From Planctomycetaceae bacterium (lineage in GTDB: Bacteria > Planctomycetota > Phycisphaerae > SM23-33), in assembly GCA_039680605.1 (NCBI GenBank), contig JBDKTA010000015.1, positions 62,001 to 126,000 of the forward strand: a stretch of DNA of 64,000 bases. Reading direction: 5' to 3'. Numbering within the stretch: position 1 is the first letter of the stretch; each line of letters opens with the position of its first letter. The notes under the pieces were generated by a model that saw only the letters and a list, made by a program, of their open reading frames with translations, did not search any database and had not been told where the DNA came from. A program made the position numbers and the translations under genes. Shown one piece after another: positions 41,396 to 53,173 of this stretch.

Positions 41396-42994
41396 CTACT
41401 TGCAGACGTTGGCGCGGATGGCGGCAATGAGGTCTTCGGCCGGACCGCCCTTGCTGACGTAGGCTTTGGCGCCGGCCTGCTGCATCTTGGCGGCCATGTC
41501 GGACTGGTCGTGCATGGACAGCCCGATCACGCAGGTGTCGGGTTGCTGGGCGACGATATGCGACGTCGCTTCGATGCCGTTCATGCCGGGCATGGAAATA
41601 TCCATGATGATTGCGTCCGGGCGGGTGCGCAGGGCCATGTCGATGGCGGTTCTTCCGTCGGCGGCTTGGCCGACGATCTCGATATCTTCCTCCTCCCCCA
41701 GCAGCGCCGCCAGCCCCTCGCGCATGACCTTGTGGTCGTCCACGAGCAGGACGGTGATGACCTTGTCTTTCCGGGCGGTGTCCGATGCGGGCTGTGGCGA
41801 GGCCGCCGCCGCGACGGACGTTTTGCCCAAGGACGCCTTGCCGATCGGGGCGGTCAGCACCACCTTGCTTCCGCGCCCGGGCTGGCTCTCGACGCCCAGC
41901 GAACCGCCCAGCAGTTCGATGCGCTGGGCGATGCTGAAGAGACCGAACCCGCCCGACGACCCACCGGCCGCCCGAAGCGCCGCGGGATCGAACCCGACGC
42001 CCTGGTCGGTGACGGTGACTTCGAGATGATCGTCGGTGCTTTGCAGGTGGACGTCAGCCCGCTGGGCCTGGGAATGCCGCGCCACGTTCAGCAGCAACTC
42101 TCGCACGGCGGTAAAGAGAAACACCCGCAGCGGTTCGACCGGTTCGGCCAGAACGCCCTCGACGCGCACCTGCACGTCCACGCCGTGCATGCTCTGCATC
42201 TGGCGCCCCAGCCACCCCAGCGCGTCTGCCAGGTCGGCCTCGTAGACGATCGGCGGGCTGAGGTCCATCGCCAGGACGCGTGAGACTTCCATCGAATCGG
42301 ACAGGAGATTGTCCACCTGCGAGAGCACGTCCTTGAGGGCGTCATCGCCGGCGCGGCGTCGCGCGGCGGTGAGACTGAGCTTGGCCCCGGCCAACGACTG
42401 CTGAAGGTTGTCGTGAAGCAGGACTGCCAGGCGGCGCCGCTCGCGCTGCTCGGCCTGGTGGATCTCCAGGGCCATCGCCTGGAGGTGGTTCGCCCGGCGG
42501 TGGAGCTGGCAGTTCAATGCCGCCAGTTGCCGCTGGGCCTGGTGGTGGCGCGTGACGTCTTCCAGGGCGAACAGCAGTTGGTCCACGCGCCCGCGATCGT
42601 CCAGCAGCGGCGTGAGGGTCCAGTTCCAGTAGGTCGTGCCCCATTCAGGATGGTCGGGAAAGTCAAACGGTTTGGCGTCGATGCGAAAGCCTTCGCCGGT
42701 CTGGACGACGCGACTGAAAATCGCCTCGTTTTCCTCGTGCGGATAGAGTTCGAAATGATTGCACCCGGCGAAATCCTCGGGGCGTTTCTGGCAGGCGCGG
42801 GCGTAGGCGTCGTTGACGCGGACAAAATTGAAATCCCGATCGAGAATGACCAGCGGCGTCAGCGAGTGATCGAAAAATGCGTCCAGCGTGCGCGCTTGGC
42901 GTCGCAACGACTGCACGTTCTCTTTCTTGCGCTCTTGGCCGGCTCGGACCTCCCCTTTCCGTGCGTCGGGCCTGCCTGGGTCGGGGCTAGGCAT
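41396..42994 (-). CDS. PAS-histidine kinase-receiver hybrid (NarX/LiaS-type kinase)
   Basis: A 532-residue soluble hybrid. After a basic start come a PAS domain (about 35-150; FFDHSLTPLVILDRDFNFVR), a HisKA_3 dimerisation domain with the acceptor in RRLAVLLHDNLQQ (His194), and an HATPase of the NarX/LiaS class (about 280-395; LLLNVARHS, GGFGLFSI). A receiver covers about 410-532 (TVLLVDDHKV; phospho-acceptor Asp465 in IIMDISMPGMNG; Lys in YVSKGG). In most systems of this class the receiver belongs to a separate NarL-type regulator with a DNA-binding domain. Here the receiver is fused to the kinase and the HTH is missing, so output must go through another protein. No membrane segment is seen. 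Confidence 0.9.
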   Translation of the reverse strand: MPSPDPGRPDARKGEVRAGQERKKENVQSLRRQARTLDAFFDHSLTPLVILDRDFNFVRVNDAYARACQKRPEDFAGCNHFELYPHEENEAIFSRVVQTGEGFRIDAKPFDFPDHPEWGTTYWNWTLTPLLDDRGRVDQLLFALEDVTRHHQAQRQLAALNCQLHRRANHLQAMALEIHQAEQRERRRLAVLLHDNLQQSLAGAKLSLTAARRRAGDDALKDVLSQVDNLLSDSMEVSRVLAMDLSPPIVYEADLADALGWLGRQMQSMHGVDVQVRVEGVLAEPVEPLRVFLFTAVRELLLNVARHSQAQRADVHLQSTDDHLEVTVTDQGVGFDPAALRAAGGSSGGFGLFSIAQRIELLGGSLGVESQPGRGSKVVLTAPIGKASLGKTSVAAAASPQPASDTARKDKVITVLLVDDHKVMREGLAALLGEEEDIEIVGQAADGRTAIDMALRTRPDAIIMDISMPGMNGIEATSHIVAQQPDTCVIGLSMHDQSDMAAKMQQAGAKAYVSKGGPAEDLIAAIRANVCK

Positions 42995-44900: not shown

Positions 44901-45052
44901 TTCGTCAGCCCAGGGCGAAGTCGCGAGCGAAGCGAGGGACGCAGCCCTGGGTCAGGGCGCCTCCACGGTGCCAGCCCTGAAAGGGCGGCACACGATTGGC
45001 GTTTCGCCCTTTCAGGGCTCAAGACGATTCGGACCATGATTGCCCCAGGGCG
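44901..45052 (+). repeat. Composite palindromic repeat family C, copy 1
   Basis: Two hairpin modules are present. Module B is GCCCAGGGC...GCCCTGGG (44908-44951), preceded by ATTCGTCA. Module A is CTGAAAGGGCG...CGCCCTTTCAG (44977-45015), followed by a tail to CCCAGGGCG at 45052. Module A plus tail (about 76 bases) matches copy 2 at 49976 with fewer than ten differences. Module B is inverted relative to copy 2. Confidence 0.8.
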
Positions 45053-45291
45053 ACTTCCCCTGTCTTGATCTTGCCTTTCAGTACCTTAACCACGGTGGCT
45101 TTCGTGGGAACCTCCACACGTACGTGCTCGCTCAACTGGCCGACGGCTGTGATTGCCCCCTCAAAGACCACCGCACTATGCTCAAAAAGATCCTGTGGCG
45201 TGGCCTTCTTTCTTGTTATTCCCGGCGCAATGAAAGTGATACAGACTGCCAGCGTCAGGATGAGCCAATACCGCATGGTCTGGGTTCTCAT
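45019..45291 (-). CDS. Small exported protein, C-terminus replaced by repeat sequence
   Basis: A 90-residue frame with a signal peptide (MRYWLILTLAVCITFIAPG; the start may be ATG 45291 or 45276) and a short beta-like mature part (VFEGAITAVGQLSEHVRVEV, then KATVVKVLKGKIKTGEVAL). The last codons (GQSWSESS) and the stop come from family C repeat copy 1, so the original protein was probably longer. It lies 12 bases downstream of the radical SAM gene on the same strand and was likely its operon partner. It may now be a non-functional remnant. Family not recognised. Confidence 0.6.
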   Translation of the reverse strand: MRTQTMRYWLILTLAVCITFIAPGITRKKATPQDLFEHSAVVFEGAITAVGQLSEHVRVEVPTKATVVKVLKGKIKTGEVALGQSWSESS

Positions 45292-45303: not shown

Positions 45304-47481
45304 TCAGAACATCCAGAAGTCCGCCAGCCAGATTTGTTTTTCGTAGGCGCGGGCCTGGCCGGGTGGGGTTTTCAGCATTGCCGGCAGGAGGAGCGGGGCG
45401 GTCTGGCCCAGTTGGCGGTTGGCGAACTTCTTGAGGTGCTCCTTGGCGGCCGCGTCGAGGGCGGGTTCGTTCTGGCGGTAGACCAGGCCCAGCAGATCAG
45501 CGTAGGTCAGCTCGGCTTTGGGCGGGAGTTTTACCGTGTAGGCGGTCTTGCCGACGGCGTCGCGGACGGTCATTTCGGCCCCGTCGTCGCCGGTTTCGAT
45601 GATGTCGAAGATGCCCATGCTGCTGGGGGCGCCGCGGGCGGGGCCTGAGGCGCTGAATCGCGAGGCGTTGACCCGCGACGAACCAGCCACCTCCAGGCGC
45701 ATGGCCTCGGCGTATGGGTGCCGCTCGAGGTAGCCTTCTAGCGGCTCAGGCGGGGTTGCGTTGGCTTTGGCCTCGTCCTGCGGCCCGCCCCAGCGCTCGA
45801 TGGCAGTGTCTTTGGCCAGGTGATTCTGGGCGTTGAGTTCTCGCTCGCCAGGCCGAATTGCCTTGCTCATCATGAACTGGAATATCTGCCCCGAGCGGCC
45901 GCGCGCCAGGTACGGGTCGAGCTTCTTTTCGAATATCTCGCTGCGCCAGGCGAGCGATGTCTTCTCGAGTGCGGCCATCGCTTCGCGCAGGGCTTTGCGG
46001 TCGGCGGGCGTGCGCTGCTGGGGTGCCGCGTCGGCCAGACAGTGCTCGGCCAGTGCTCGCCACATCAGGGCCGAAAACGCCAGCGACCGCTGCGGCGTCT
46101 GCACGGCCTTGTCCAGAGCCTGCGCCAGACCGGGGGCATCCTTTGGCAGCAGGCCCTGGCGGTACTGGGCCAGGAAGATTCCTGCCGGGTCGCTCACCAA
46201 GGCGTCGGGAACAGAGCGGTCGGCCAGGGGAAGACGGTCGTAAGAATACCCGCCCAGCGGCATGGCATACCAGGCCACGATGGCCTGTTCGATGGCCGAG
46301 GCTTCCTGCACGCCTTTGACGAGCTGTTTCACAGCGGGCCGGGTCTGCGCCGGCGCCTTGGGCGGATCGTCCGCCGCCGCGGCGTGGAGCACGCCCATGC
46401 AGACGGCCATTCCAGCGGCGGTCTTCAGGGCGGCGCCGACATGCCAGACCGAGCGGAAGCAGTGTGTACCGCTGCGCCGCTGCAGCCAGCACCCTCCGCC
46501 GCAGGCGGGGGCGTATTTGCAGGCGGTGCAGCGGCCTTCCATTTGCCGGTGGCGCAGTGCCGAGAAACCATCGCGCCAGATCTCCGCCAGCGGGCGGTCG
46601 TGAATGTTGCCAGCCGCCGTCAAGGTATCCAGCGTCGTGCAGGGCACGACGCTGCCGTCGGGCAGCACGACGCACTGTGCGATGCCGGCCCCGCAGCGGA
46701 AGGGGCTGTCGCGAAGCTGCGGTTCCCAGTCGCCGGTGTAGCCGATCTCGTCGGCCATCGTCACCGGGAAGTACGCTCGGCGGCGGGCGACGAAACGCAT
46801 GAGGTCGCCCAGTTGCTTCTTGGACAGGAACAAGTCTGGCCGTTTGGCGGCGCGGCCCTGCGGCACGGGCAGGTGGATGCCCCACGAGTGTGCCCCGCTG
46901 GCGACGGTCAGGCGAAACGTCTCGCCCAAGGCCGCGAAGTTGTGCGTGGTCACCGTGGTGCCTGCGGCCACGCGGCAATTGCCCAGGCCGCTGAAGAAGC
47001 GGATGGCCGCCAGCGCCTGCTCGAACGAATCGCCGCGACCGCGGAAGGAGTCATGCACGTCCTTGGGCCCATCGAGGCTGACAGCCGCGAACCGCGGCGG
47101 ATGGGTCTCGATGGCCTCGCGCAGTTCGCCGACGGGCATGATCGCGGTGTTGAGGCTCCACGGCAGGCGGCGCTGCGACAGGCATTCGAGCACCGGCCTA
47201 AGGTCCGCCCGGCACAACGGCTCGCCGCCGGTGACCAGAAACTCGCCGACACCCATATCGGCCGCCTCATCGACCAGTCGCAGCGCCGTCTCGATGGGCA
47301 TGTCGCTCATCGTGTGATCGCCCGCGGCCAGGCAGTGCCCGCAGCTCAGCGGGCACCGCAGCGTGGCCATCCACTGCACCAGCCGCGGCGCGGGGGTGTA
47401 GCCATGCTCGTCAAAGAACCGCCGCTCATCCGGGTCGCGCGGGGCAAGATGATGTCGTGACGATCTGCTGTGCGTGCCCAT
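45304..47481 (-). CDS. Radical SAM/SPASM enzyme fused to a membrane-anchored C-terminal domain
   Basis: A 725-residue protein starting at ATG 47481 behind AAAGGGA. The N-terminal half is a radical SAM enzyme with CPLSCGHC (Cys43, 47, 50) for the SAM cluster and GGEP at about 85. A SPASM-type auxiliary cluster region follows, with cysteines at 263, 270, 281, 318, 321, 327, 331 and 341 (VLPDGSVVPC; CTACKYAPACGGGC). Residues about 349-370 are hydrophobic and signal-like (AAGMAVCMGVLHAAAADD). A 350-residue helical domain I do not recognise follows. The layout suggests a cytoplasmic peptide/protein-modifying enzyme tethered to the membrane with an exported tail. Alternatively, two genes have fused: an ATG at 46410 could start a separate secreted protein. 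Neighbours are an exported propeller protein and a small exported protein. Confidence 0.83.
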   Translation of the reverse strand: MGTHSRSSRHHLAPRDPDERRFFDEHGYTPAPRLVQWMATLRCPLSCGHCLAAGDHTMSDMPIETALRLVDEAADMGVGEFLVTGGEPLCRADLRPVLECLSQRRLPWSLNTAIMPVGELREAIETHPPRFAAVSLDGPKDVHDSFRGRGDSFEQALAAIRFFSGLGNCRVAAGTTVTTHNFAALGETFRLTVASGAHSWGIHLPVPQGRAAKRPDLFLSKKQLGDLMRFVARRRAYFPVTMADEIGYTGDWEPQLRDSPFRCGAGIAQCVVLPDGSVVPCTTLDTLTAAGNIHDRPLAEIWRDGFSALRHRQMEGRCTACKYAPACGGGCWLQRRSGTHCFRSVWHVGAALKTAAGMAVCMGVLHAAAADDPPKAPAQTRPAVKQLVKGVQEASAIEQAIVAWYAMPLGGYSYDRLPLADRSVPDALVSDPAGIFLAQYRQGLLPKDAPGLAQALDKAVQTPQRSLAFSALMWRALAEHCLADAAPQQRTPADRKALREAMAALEKTSLAWRSEIFEKKLDPYLARGRSGQIFQFMMSKAIRPGERELNAQNHLAKDTAIERWGGPQDEAKANATPPEPLEGYLERHPYAEAMRLEVAGSSRVNASRFSASGPARGAPSSMGIFDIIETGDDGAEMTVRDAVGKTAYTVKLPPKAELTYADLLGLVYRQNEPALDAAAKEHLKKFANRQLGQTAPLLLPAMLKTPPGQARAYEKQIWLADFWMF

Positions 47482-47563: not shown

Positions 47564-48535
47564 TCATTCGCCCCGGAACCACTTTTGGATGACCAGAAAA
47601 GCCGACTTGCAGCGGACTACTTGCAGGCTCTCACCATCCATTCCTTCAGCAGGAGGAATCGGCCATCGCCACTGCTCTTTGCCTTGGAGTGTAAACGCGA
47701 TCAAAGTATTCGGTGCTCGCCCCTTCCGCTCGAGGGCGAAAATTATGTTTTCTGTGTACATAAGGATTGACGTCTGTGCCGGCAACGAGAGCGCAGGGGC
47801 TGAGGCGGGGGCGGGTGCGTTCTTGGGCGCAGCGACGCGGGTCGTCGGCGGGCGATCAGTGAGACGCTTGCCCATTGCGGTATCAAAATAGACACAGGAG
47901 TCGCCCAAAATGATTCCCGGTTCAACGCCACGGATCCGGTCATTTCTTCGTGGCCACATGTAGGAGGCCATCCAGACGCGCTGGCCGGTCTCAATGTTGA
48001 TCTTGATGAGCGTCACCGGCCCCTCAATTACCGGCAGCATTCCACCCTCGACCTTTTCACTGCTCTGAGTGCAGTAAGCGAAATACGCAAAGGCGGCGTC
48101 AGGCCCCGCCTCATCCGGTTTGGGAAACCATGAACCGGCCAAAGACGCCCACGGTATATCGGTCCTGTAAAGCTCGCGTCCGGTGTCCTTGGCAAAGCCG
48201 ACAAGGCCGGTTTCTGTTGTCACGATTATTGCGCGGGGGCCGAAGCATACCCATTTGGCGCCCTGCGCTCTTTTCTGCCATGCCCGCGAATTATCGAAGT
48301 GGAAGACCGTCAACTCCTCTTTTTCAACATGAGCATACATCTCGGCCACCGGATCGACCGCATCGCCTGGCTTGGTATTCAGGCGGTGGATGAGTCTTCC
48401 TTCGCTGCTTAACAAGTAGTGGTCTGTGCCTGCTGCGCCCCCGGCCGCCATCGCCGCCTGGTTCAATACCAAGAGCAGAATCAGCACTGTGCCGCACCCA
48501 TATTTCGCCTTTGTCTGCAAGGGCATCCCATTCAT
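47564..48535 (-). CDS. Exported PQQ-like beta-propeller protein
   Basis: A 323-residue protein. ATG 48535 has AAAGGAG 7 bases upstream and opens a signal peptide (KAKYGCGTVLILLLVLNQAAMA). The mature part has propeller-like blades (HYLLSSEGRLIHRLN, GLVGFAKDTGRELYRTD, LIKINIETGQRVWMASY, LIAFTLQGKEQWRW), too few for a full eight-bladed wheel, with an Ala/Pro linker at about 235-255. It is the first gene of an apparent three-gene run with the radical SAM fusion (82 bases on) and the small exported protein. Function unknown. Confidence 0.78.
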   Translation of the reverse strand: MNGMPLQTKAKYGCGTVLILLLVLNQAAMAAGGAAGTDHYLLSSEGRLIHRLNTKPGDAVDPVAEMYAHVEKEELTVFHFDNSRAWQKRAQGAKWVCFGPRAIIVTTETGLVGFAKDTGRELYRTDIPWASLAGSWFPKPDEAGPDAAFAYFAYCTQSSEKVEGGMLPVIEGPVTLIKINIETGQRVWMASYMWPRRNDRIRGVEPGIILGDSCVYFDTAMGKRLTDRPPTTRVAAPKNAPAPASAPALSLPAQTSILMYTENIIFALERKGRAPNTLIAFTLQGKEQWRWPIPPAEGMDGESLQVVRCKSAFLVIQKWFRGE

Positions 48536-48880
48536 CTGACCACTCCTTTCGCAAGCACCCTGATTTTGACGGTCAAACTAACAGGAAGTTCCATCTTTTC
48601 AACGGGTCGAAGTCGGCTCTGTGATGATGTCGGCCAGGATCGTGTCGGCGACGAAGAGGTACTCGCCGGCGAGGTGGATGGTTTCGCCCGTCACCACCAG
48701 GGCGCGCTGTGACGCGTATCGAGCGACGGTGTTGGGGAAAGCTTCGACGGGATCGGCGCCGAAGCGCGCGGATAGTTCGCTGCGGCTGACGCCTTCGATC
48801 AGGCGCAGGCCCAGCATGAGCGTTTCGGCGTAGGCGGCGCGGCCGGTGAGGCGTTCAGATGCACCAGGCGGCAAGTGTGG

Positions 48881-48915
48881 GTGCCATGGCGGCCGTTTTT
48901 CAGCCGCCATGTCCC
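48881..48915 (+). repeat. Palindromic repeat family B inside hemW
   Basis: GTGCCATGGCGGCCGTTTTT then CAGCCGCCATG: almost identical to the reverse complement of the right half of the block at 23161-23247. It lies between the conserved LNAYLAALE and SERLTG parts of hemW, so it is an insertion there. Confidence 0.8.
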
Positions 48916-48947
48916 CAGCCAGAGCAGCAATGTAGGTGTCCAAGTCC

Positions 48948-49024
48948 GGAAAATCGGACGGTTACTATTTTCCAGTGCGGCCAGAGGAAAATCGGGACGG
49001 TTACTATTTTCCAGCGCGGCCAGA
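48948..49024. repeat. Tandem duplication of a GAAAAT...ATTTTC mini-element
   Basis: Two direct copies (38 and 39 bases; 48948-48985 and 48986-49024) each contain GAAAATCGG(G)ACGGTTACTA followed by TTTTCCAG and GCGGCCAGA. The element has inverted ends (GAAAAT/ATTTTC), and the repeat includes host hemW codons (LAALE). This resembles a short palindromic element that duplicated its target. Confidence 0.7.
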
Positions 49025-49601
49025 TAAGCATTGAGATCAGGAGCATTGGTGCGGCGCGTGCCGGCGACGTAGCTCGCGGCGGCTGGGCCGATGCCGACGT
49101 ACGGGCGGTTGTGCCAGTACGTCAGGTTGTGGCGGCAGCGGCGGCCGGGGCGGGCGAAGTTGGAGATCTCGTAGTGCTCCAGGCCCGCGGCCGCAAGGGT
49201 CTCGATGGCGGCGTAGTAGCAGTTCTTCTGCGTCTGTTCGTCGGCGGGGGCCAGGCGGCCGGCGGCAAAGTCGGCGGCCAGCGGCGTGCCCTCCTCGACG
49301 CTCAGGGCGTAGCAACTCATGTGCGAGGGTTGCAGCGCCATCGCGGCCGTCAATGATCGCTGCCACGAGGCGAGGGTCTGTCCGGGGATGCCGTATATCA
49401 GGTCGAGGCTGACGTTGTCGATGCCGGCCCGGCGGACGGTCTCGACGGCGGCGGCGACATCGGCGGCTTTGTGCGGCCGCCCCAGCGTGGCCAGCTCCTG
49501 GTCGTCGAGCGGCTGGGCGCCGATGGAGACGCGGTTGACGCCGGCGGCTTTGATGACGCTCGCGACGGCAGAGTCGAGGCTGCAGGGATTGGCTTCGGAA
49601 C

Positions 49602-49621
49602 AAAGGGGTCAGGAACCTTTT
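49602..49621. repeat. AAAGG...CCTTTT mini-palindrome at the hemW break
   Basis: AAAGGGGTCAGGAACCTTTT: inverted ends AAAGG/CCTTT exactly at the point where hemW homology stops. From memory, sequences of this type accompany REP-associated (RAYT) elements in many bacteria. No transposase gene is present here. Confidence 0.6.
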
Positions 49622-50140: not shown

Positions 50141-50860
<720 letters not shown>

Positions 50861-50995
50861 CTGGTCTTTTGGTCAGGCGGTATTTGTCAAGGAAGCATCC
50901 GAAAGTTGCCGATGCATCAGGATGTTGAAATGGACATCGAGGGTTGTGCCTTCCCTGCGCTGCAGCCGCGCCTGGGAAGAGCTTGCGCGACGCGC

Positions 50996-53173
50996 ATGGA
51001 AAGACCTATGGTGGATGGAGCCAACAACGCGACACGCCCATTGCTGGCGGTGATGCTGGCGGCGAGCCTGCTGGCCGGATGCAGCACCGAAATCGGCGAG
51101 TATACCAAGGTGGACTGGTCGCGGTTCTTCGACCCCAGCAAGGTTATCGCCAAGCCCAAGCACAAGGTCACCTCCGCGATCTCCGACACGACGGGCCTGA
51201 TGGATCCGGTCGAGGGTCTGCTGCCCAACTCACGACCGCCGGAGCGGGCGGATTCCGTTTTTGACGAGCGGGAATATATCATCGGCCCCACCGACGTGCT
51301 CAACATCGGCGTGATGGACCTGTTCGTGCAAGGGCAGGAGAGCACGTTCCAGCGCGAGGTCACGCCCAACGGCTTCATCGACCTGCCGCTGATCGACAAG
51401 CGCATCAAGGCCGACGGCCTGACCAGCGCCCAGCTTCGCGAGCAGATCAAGGGCGCATACAGCCCGGAGATTATCCTCGATCCCAAGGTGTCGATCCAGG
51501 TCGTCGCGCGGCGGCAGAGCCGGTTCACCCGCGTCGGATCGACCAACCAGGGGCAGTTCTTCCTCACGCGGCTGGACACTCATTTGCTGGAAGCGCTGGC
51601 CGTCAGCGGCGGCATTCCGACGATCCCGGGCGTGGAATACATTTACGTGATCCGTCAGAAGCCCGCCGCCGAGGCGACCGCGGCGGCTGCGGCTCCGGCA
51701 GTCCTGGCTCCGGCCCCGCCGGTGGTGGCGCCCACGCCCCCGGTCGTGGTTCCGCAGCCGCCGGTAACGGTACCCCAGCCGCCGGTCGTTCCCCAGCCGC
51801 CGGTGGTGACACAGCCGCCGGTGGTGGTACCCCAGCCGCCGATTGTGACGCCGATCATTCCGCCGCTGGTTGCCCCTCCGGCGACGCCGCCTGTGCGGAC
51901 CCAACCGGCCACAGCGCCGGTGAGCGGTCTGGAGGAATCGGTTCGTCGTCAGGGCACGCGACCGGCCACCCAGAGCCAGGCCTTTGAGAAGCTAAGAGAT
52001 GCGTTGCCGATTATCCCGCCGGGTACGCAACGGGTTCCAGAGCGAGAAGACCTCGGTCCGCGCGAAGAGCCCCTGCGCCTGTCGGTGACGTCGGCGGCGC
52101 CCTCGGGAACCAACGCATCATCCACCGCGAGCCAGAAGTATGCTTTCCGCGACGGCCAATGGGTGAAGGTGCCGCTGTACGTGGCCCAACCCGAGCCCAA
52201 CCCCGTCGCCACCGCGCCCAAGCCCCCTGCGGCGATTGTCGCGACGCCGGGCAAGCCCCTCCAGGCCGCAGTGCTGCCCGCCAAGGCAACGCCTCCGGCG
52301 GCGCCGGCGAAAGAGGCGCCCCGGCCGCAACCCGCCCTCGCCGCGGCAGTCGCGGCCCCGGCGCGACCGCTGCCGCTGCCGGAATCGCTCAAGCTGCCGG
52401 TCCAACCGGCCAAGCCCGACAGCGCCGCCGCGCCGGTGCGGGTCGCCACGTTCGACCCGCCGGCCAAGCCCATGCCCGTCCCCGGGCAGGCGCGGAACAA
52501 TCCGGACATGCAGACGATTCTCAGCCGCGCCCTGGGCGCCAAGACCGCCCAGGCGTTGACCGGACAGGCGCCTGCTCCCGCGCCGGCGAGCCAGCCGCTG
52601 ACGGCCCCGGTGGGGCGTGCGCCAGCCGTCGCGAGAGACCCCTACGGATGGGACGCGGCCATCGGGGCCGACCAGACCGAAATTATTGCCATCAGATTGG
52701 ACGAACTTCAGAGCATCAACACCAGTATGAACATCATCGTCCGGGACAACGACGTCATATTCGTCCCCAGCCCGGCGACCGGCGAGTTTTACATGATGGG
52801 CGAAGTGGCGCGGCCGGGCGTCTACGCCCTGACCGGAAGAGGCACGACGTTGAAGCAAGCCGTTGCCGCCGCGGGCAATCTCGGCGGCGCGAGTTGGCCT
52901 GAAAATTCGATCTTGTTCAGGAGAGTCGCCAGCAACCAGGAACAGGCGATTCCGGTGAACCTGGAAAAGATATTCAGAAGCGAGGAGCCCGACATTTACC
53001 TCAAGCCGAACGACATCCTGGCGGTGGGCACGCACGTGGCGGTGCCATTCTACGCCATGGTTCGAGGCATGGTGCCCCAGATCCAGATCCAGAGCACGCT
53101 TGAGTATAGTCGAAACTTCTTTAACCCGATTCCGACAACTGGTTTGGACAGCACGCGATTCACTCGCTGGTAA
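50996..53173 (+). CDS. Polysaccharide export (Wza-like) lipoprotein
   Basis: A lipoprotein of about 725 residues. The start is ATG 50996 or 51008; both lead to RPLLAVMLAASLLAGC with the lipid-bearing Cys29. The poly_export domain is at about 94-185 (YIIGPTDVLNIGVMD; QREVTPNGFIDLPLIDKRIK) and is followed by an SLBB-like stretch (LLEALAVSGGIPTIPG). A low-complexity region rich in Pro/Val/Ala (about 220-560; repeats of PQPPVV) separates it from a second SLBB domain (about 598-680; GEVARPGVYALTGRGTTLKQ). It would form the outer-membrane exit of an exopolysaccharide pathway. It is first in a five-gene operon: the exosortase starts 12 bases after its stop. The long Pro-rich insert is unusual for Wza homologues and may span a thick envelope. 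Confidence 0.9.
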   Translation: MERPMVDGANNATRPLLAVMLAASLLAGCSTEIGEYTKVDWSRFFDPSKVIAKPKHKVTSAISDTTGLMDPVEGLLPNSRPPERADSVFDEREYIIGPTDVLNIGVMDLFVQGQESTFQREVTPNGFIDLPLIDKRIKADGLTSAQLREQIKGAYSPEIILDPKVSIQVVARRQSRFTRVGSTNQGQFFLTRLDTHLLEALAVSGGIPTIPGVEYIYVIRQKPAAEATAAAAAPAVLAPAPPVVAPTPPVVVPQPPVTVPQPPVVPQPPVVTQPPVVVPQPPIVTPIIPPLVAPPATPPVRTQPATAPVSGLEESVRRQGTRPATQSQAFEKLRDALPIIPPGTQRVPEREDLGPREEPLRLSVTSAAPSGTNASSTASQKYAFRDGQWVKVPLYVAQPEPNPVATAPKPPAAIVATPGKPLQAAVLPAKATPPAAPAKEAPRPQPALAAAVAAPARPLPLPESLKLPVQPAKPDSAAAPVRVATFDPPAKPMPVPGQARNNPDMQTILSRALGAKTAQALTGQAPAPAPASQPLTAPVGRAPAVARDPYGWDAAIGADQTEIIAIRLDELQSINTSMNIIVRDNDVIFVPSPATGEFYMMGEVARPGVYALTGRGTTLKQAVAAAGNLGGASWPENSILFRRVASNQEQAIPVNLEKIFRSEEPDIYLKPNDILAVGTHVAVPFYAMVRGMVPQIQIQSTLEYSRNFFNPIPTTGLDSTRFTRW

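Follow-up and report, generated by a model that had tools for sequence, protein, structure and literature searches.

P0001, the product of a gene in the 64,000-nucleotide stretch of Planctomycetaceae DNA analysed here (the window), raises the question of how a protein with a folded iron-sulfur enzyme at its N-terminus can export its C-terminal half, and when that half would be modified. The gene lies exactly where it had been predicted, at 45304-47481, on the minus strand, and is a single open frame of 725 aa with an ATG start, no stop inside and no conserved internal start; the plus strand of the same interval has stops in the same frame. The start call is right: all relatives (n = 8) align from the first methionine, mostly as MGTHS or MGSHS. 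The protein comprises an enzyme (residues 1-345), a signal-like helix (~346-372) and then a tail of ~350 residues. Its features and the two adjacent genes are as follows.

45304..47481, minus strand: P0001, fused radical SAM/SPASM enzyme, putative signal sequence and putative exported tail, 725 aa
46975..47364, minus strand: Radical SAM domain, residues 40-169 (PF04055, 2.5e-12; CxxxCxxC at 43/47/50)
46459..46695, minus strand: SPASM domain, residues 263-341 (PF13186, TIGR04085; CX6CX10C ... CX2CX5CX3C ... C)
46366..46446, minus strand: internal signal-like segment WHVGAALKTAAGMAVCMGVLHAAAADD, residues 346-372, with an AxA-like cleavage site; present in 8/8 fused proteins
45307..46365, minus strand: putative exported tail, residues 373-725, homologous to partner proteins P0006-P0009 (hhalign)
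45859..45882, minus strand: FQFMMSKA motif, residues 534-541 (joint alignment)
45307..45330, minus strand: C-terminal WLADFWMF, residues 718-725 (alignment of fused proteins)
45019-45291: gene for a small exported protein, starting 12 bp after the P0001 stop, with a GGAG ribosome site
47564-48535: gene for a propeller protein, ending 82 bp upstream of P0001

Architecture of the fused protein

The first half of P0001 is a member of the Radical SAM superfamily (PF04055, 47.7 bits against a cut-off of 29.5) with a SPASM domain recognised by both PF13186 (residues 263-322, 1.7e-9; 38.2 bits against 21.5) and TIGR04085 (48.2 bits against 27). The eleven cysteines in radical SAM plus SPASM arrangement that had been read from the sequence were borne out by these domain matches and by their conservation: three (C43, C47 and C50) plus eight (C263, C270, C281, C318, C321, C327, C331 and C341) of the 14 cysteines in residues 1-345 are invariant in 8/8 fused proteins. 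By score, the top NCBIfam match was TIGR04133 (rSAM_w_lipo; 157 bits over residues 34-331), far below its cut-off of 425. Many further SPASM enzyme models scored lower than TIGR04133, and those for the haem b synthase AhbD, NirJ and PqqE gave 64-110 bits, all far under their cut-offs. A profile search of the PDB matched the enzyme half alone (PqqE, SkfB, anSME 4k36-4k39 and others).

Right after the last SPASM cysteine comes a hydrophobic stretch, conserved in the fused family as W..(A)LKTAAGxAVCLGxL. The segment is Ala-rich and weakly hydrophobic, with a best 17-residue Kyte-Doolittle mean of 1.55 in P0001 and 1.55-1.91 in the family, which is comparable to the core of a signal peptide; helix 1 of the stand-alone partner proteins described below gives 1.8-3.3. 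A lysine precedes the segment in most fused members, and its end carries AxA-like sites in most of them and a lipobox (LSAC) in G307. The segment is thus probably a signal sequence that is cleaved, not a permanent anchor. The original prediction of a signal-like helix in mid-protein stands as regards the hydrophobic segment, weak as it is, whereas the AxA-like sites and the G307 lipobox argue against the membrane anchor. An internal start yielding a separate tail was also considered and rejected: a Shine-Dalgarno sequence with GTG occurs in G264 only, and the Val codon is GTC or GTA in G000 (the genome studied here), G005 and G035. As no internal start codon is conserved, the tail is made as part of the fusion.

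A search of Pfam with the tail alone (368 aa) returned no match, even at E < 10, and neither the tail nor a profile of its partners matched any structure in the PDB. Single-sequence AlphaFold modelling of the tail gave a mean pLDDT of 47 and a pTM of 0.32, making the model unfit for fold searching. A tail free of recognised homology, as had been proposed, is therefore what the curated libraries return, but homologues do exist among the stand-alone partner proteins. Mean pairwise identity among the fused proteins is 57% in the enzyme half and 29% in the tail, and no cysteine is conserved past the signal segment. Past the SPASM domain, conservation over windows of six residues peaks at the C-terminal block, which in the eight proteins reads ADFWMF, TDFWMF, ADLWMF, ADFWLF, ANFWML, AQLYLF, ADFWMF and LNQWMF. 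A C-terminal sorting tag common to many proteins was rejected as an explanation of this block, as DFW-x-F-stop occurs once in the whole genome, in this gene only. Within FQFMMSKA, K540 was found in nearly all fused tails and in all partners (there as W-x-SK-x-x-P); the serine of the SKAGP motif is not invariant, and the first and last residues of S-K-A-x-x are not kept family-wide.

Recurrence of the fusion and its split relatives

The class (397 genomes) and the phylum (392 genomes), both mostly drafts, were sampled rather than exhausted. The full-length fusion occurred in eight genomes across several classes of the phylum: the genome studied here, two of the same family (G005 and G018), one of the same order (G035), one of the same class (G264) and three outside the class (G390, G493 and G307). 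It is rare, being present in 5/397 genomes of the class, and the viral contigs searched held no relatives. The design singled out as unusual in the original prediction, a cytoplasmic maturase tied to an exported domain, is therefore real and recurrent. G005 has a second copy (contig 206) that runs off its contig and whose frame is broken behind the signal segment, perhaps through decay or a draft error.

The nearest tail-less enzymes (270-300 bits) are of two types. Enzymes of the first (G407, G072, G332:C488 and G339) end approximately where the fused protein continues into its tail, and are followed by a partner gene, which overlaps the enzyme gene by 4 bp in three genomes and lies ~15 bp away in G339. 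The partner proteins are 400-470 aa long and, with two N-terminal hydrophobic segments, are predicted to be membrane-anchored and exported. Comparison of the eight tails with the four partners by hhalign gave a score of 56.3 (probability 90.9, E 1.1e-6, 164 columns), against at most 21.0 for 59 column shuffles and 17.0 for a reversed profile. Tails and partners have in common the motifs LWR, SKAGP and FD/LD, with shared columns at W404, W474-R475 (LLWR), K540 (SKAGP), G566, D626 and L719; the aromatic C-terminal block differs in the stand-alone partners. Across the 392 genomes, the partner profile found four strong matches, each adjoining a pair-type enzyme, and one weak partial match in G484. 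Together, the tails and partners make up an exported family, marked by these three motifs, that has no match in the libraries searched.

An enzyme-domain phylogeny built with IQ-TREE placed all eight fused forms on one side of a branch (support 100/98), with the first pair type as sister to this clade (fused plus pair, 97/96). A grouping of the pairs with G307 alone was rejected (AU test, P = 0.003). The simplest account of these sequences is a single event that fused two overlapping genes, the enzyme gene first and the partner gene second. The fused gene has the enzyme clade and the homologous partner in common with the two-gene type, but not the separate genes. Pair-type enzymes (L083, L084, L081 and L086) also lack two or three of the four CX2CX5CX3C cysteines, all of which are kept in the fused type and in the second stand-alone type; the auxiliary clusters of fused and split forms therefore probably differ.

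The second type of tail-less enzyme is more distant (G308 and G332:C78), and its gene comes after one for another kind of exported, membrane-anchored protein, which has YGxRP(K/R) at its C-terminus. At the two loci concerned (L082, 3687-6094; L085, 120-2491) these proteins, of 446 and 422 aa respectively, are encoded directly before the enzyme gene and contain weak HEAT-like repeats. Homology between the tail and this partner type was not detected (hhalign probability 0.1).

Proposed function and its alternatives

We consider it fairly probable that P0001 unites a radical SAM/SPASM maturase with its exported partner, and that the tail is the substrate, being modified in the cytoplasm and only then exported. 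The exported part is the inferred target because the link between enzyme and partner is one-to-one, as an operon in one clade and as a single chain in its sister, and modification should precede export because radical SAM chemistry needs the cytoplasm. The enzyme half would fold in the cytoplasm, where [4Fe-4S] clusters and SAM are available, and would modify the still unfolded tail, either in cis or between two copies. The tail would then pass through Sec, probably with cleavage behind the AxA site (in G307, lipidation), and would end up as a modified helical protein on the outer side of the membrane. Candidate sites of modification are the near-invariant SKAGP lysine, which the partners also have, and the aromatic C-terminus ADFWMF. 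No individual residue stands out as the target, because the C-terminal block differs in the partners and the SKAGP serine is not invariant. Two points weigh against the model: cis-modification must outpace export, which is far from self-evident when both parts are joined, and one G005 copy is broken between its two parts.

The stricter form of this proposal, in which a radical SAM enzyme, while still in the cytoplasm, modifies its own C-terminal domain (at the SKAGP lysine or in the terminal ADFWMF) and the chain then enters Sec at the internal signal and is cut, is a serious possibility, if not quite a probable one. Should it hold, one gene would give rise to an iron-sulfur enzyme in the cytoplasm and also to an exported protein that is modified and belongs to an undescribed family. 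What an orphan SPASM enzyme acts on is difficult to guess; in this family, the assignment of enzyme to target is directly testable with one expressed gene, since one clade has the partner fused to the enzyme and the sister clade has it in the neighbouring gene.

Judged by its sequence, the fused gene may be a variant of a known pairing of a radical SAM/SPASM enzyme with an exported partner. In TIGR04133/TIGR04134 (lipo_with_rSAM, NCBIfam), a SPASM enzyme is likewise named for an exported lipoprotein partner; P0001 matched TIGR04133 from before CxxxCxxC to the SPASM end, and the fused protein of G307 has a lipobox after its signal segment. In contrast, enzyme and partner form one chain in P0001 and the tail falls in no Pfam family. 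The TIGR04134 model had no match in the genome studied here, and the control genomes gave none either. QhpD modifies QhpC, a subunit of quinohemoprotein amine dehydrogenase, in the cytoplasm, whereas the related subunit of MADH undergoes processing once it has been translocated into the periplasm (PMC7876137). QhpD, as a radical SAM enzyme acting on a protein subunit in the cytoplasm, is a precedent for the model proposed here, but QhpD and QhpC are separate proteins, and the reaction involves a leader peptide and thioether bonds to cysteines, whereas the P0001 tail has no conserved cysteine. The anSMEs have a full SPASM domain, as does P0001, whose PDB profile matches include anSME 4k36-4k39. 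Their sulfatase targets are often exported. These targets carry C/S-x-P/A-x-R, whereas the S-K-A-x-x of the tail does not keep its serine in all members of the family, and the tail is not a sulfatase, as no Pfam family matched it.

In the borosins, a SAM-dependent enzyme is fused to its own substrate, with split versions in other lineages (PMC8429565). The likeness to the proposed model is that modifying enzyme and substrate form one chain with split forms elsewhere; the borosin enzyme differs in being an N-methyltransferase, not a radical SAM enzyme. To our knowledge, no borosin has an internal signal sequence between enzyme and core. Literature searches, with few subscription journals in their coverage, turned up nothing directly about radical SAM enzymes that are fused to their substrates.

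Alternatively, the tail could be a permanently linked exported helper (an anchor, sensor or docking domain), with the enzyme acting on an unlinked protein at the membrane. RiPP precursors are short and consist of leader and core, whereas the partners here have 350-470 residues, and their size (~400 residues, much larger than typical RiPP precursors) suits a helper, as does the incomplete sharing between tails and partners of the lysine motif and, likewise, of the C-terminal aromatic motif. However, a third gene common to the fused loci was not found, and a one-to-one link between enzyme and partner is the usual sign of a dedicated target, so we regard a helper as unlikely but worth keeping in view. 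It is improbable that the enzyme makes or alters a small molecule, such as a haem-like or quinone-like cofactor, which the exported tail binds or carries. The AhbD, NirJ and PqqE matches hint at such chemistry, but they are sub-threshold and were outscored by TIGR04133, a model named for its partner lipoprotein; moreover, the surroundings of the fused loci showed no genes of a cofactor pathway, and Pfam revealed no known cofactor-binding domain in the tail.

The original prediction had looked for the modification target next to P0001, in the small exported protein or the propeller protein. The small gene is probably co-transcribed with P0001, given its position 12 bp after the stop and behind GGAG. 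Neither protein had a homologue in the flanks retrieved from the other seven fused loci, several of them on short contigs (best E 0.18); the fusion recurs, but its company of propeller and small exported protein does not. This makes either neighbour a very improbable target, and the tail itself the likelier one. Finally, a chance or erroneous fusion (an assembly error or lost stop codon) devoid of function might seem to be favoured by the separate genes of the sister lineages and the G005 copy broken between its halves, but it is for practical purposes excluded, because the whole architecture, far from being unique to this genome, recurs in eight genomes over several classes, in one clade and with a conserved C-terminus.

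Surroundings of the fused gene

The neighbours of the other fused loci are unrelated; by reading of the sequence, they include tRNA methyltransferase-like and CcdA-thioredoxin-like genes (G035), a pyruvate formate-lyase-like gene (G005) and an enolase gene (G390). In the window itself, a histidine kinase is encoded on the minus strand at 41396-42994, with the order PAS, HisKA_3, HATPase and C-terminal receiver and without a DNA-binding domain. At 48599-49603, also on the minus strand, lies the remnant of a HemW/HemN-like gene. It retains the C-terminal HemN_C domain but has no N-terminal radical SAM motif, and its reading frame is shifted at a tandem duplication of 39 bp (48948-49024). Elsewhere, the same genome has two more HemN_C genes, whose open frames are longer. 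A tandem array at 50152-50851, with units of ~141-170 bp and internal CGAGGA runs, is open in several frames, and just after it comes a Wza-type polysaccharide export gene (50906-53173).

Further radical SAM frames of 700-850 aa in the class (among them L004, L013 and L015) were judged by eye to have a different architecture and were set aside as relatives of P0001. Several, including one on contig 21 of the genome studied here (L004; the others being L013, L015, L019, L024, L025 and L027), join a haem synthase-type radical SAM/SPASM enzyme to two Lrp-like repeats. Such fusions are seen in several genomes of the class, and their repeats resemble by eye the siroheme decarboxylase AhbA/B.
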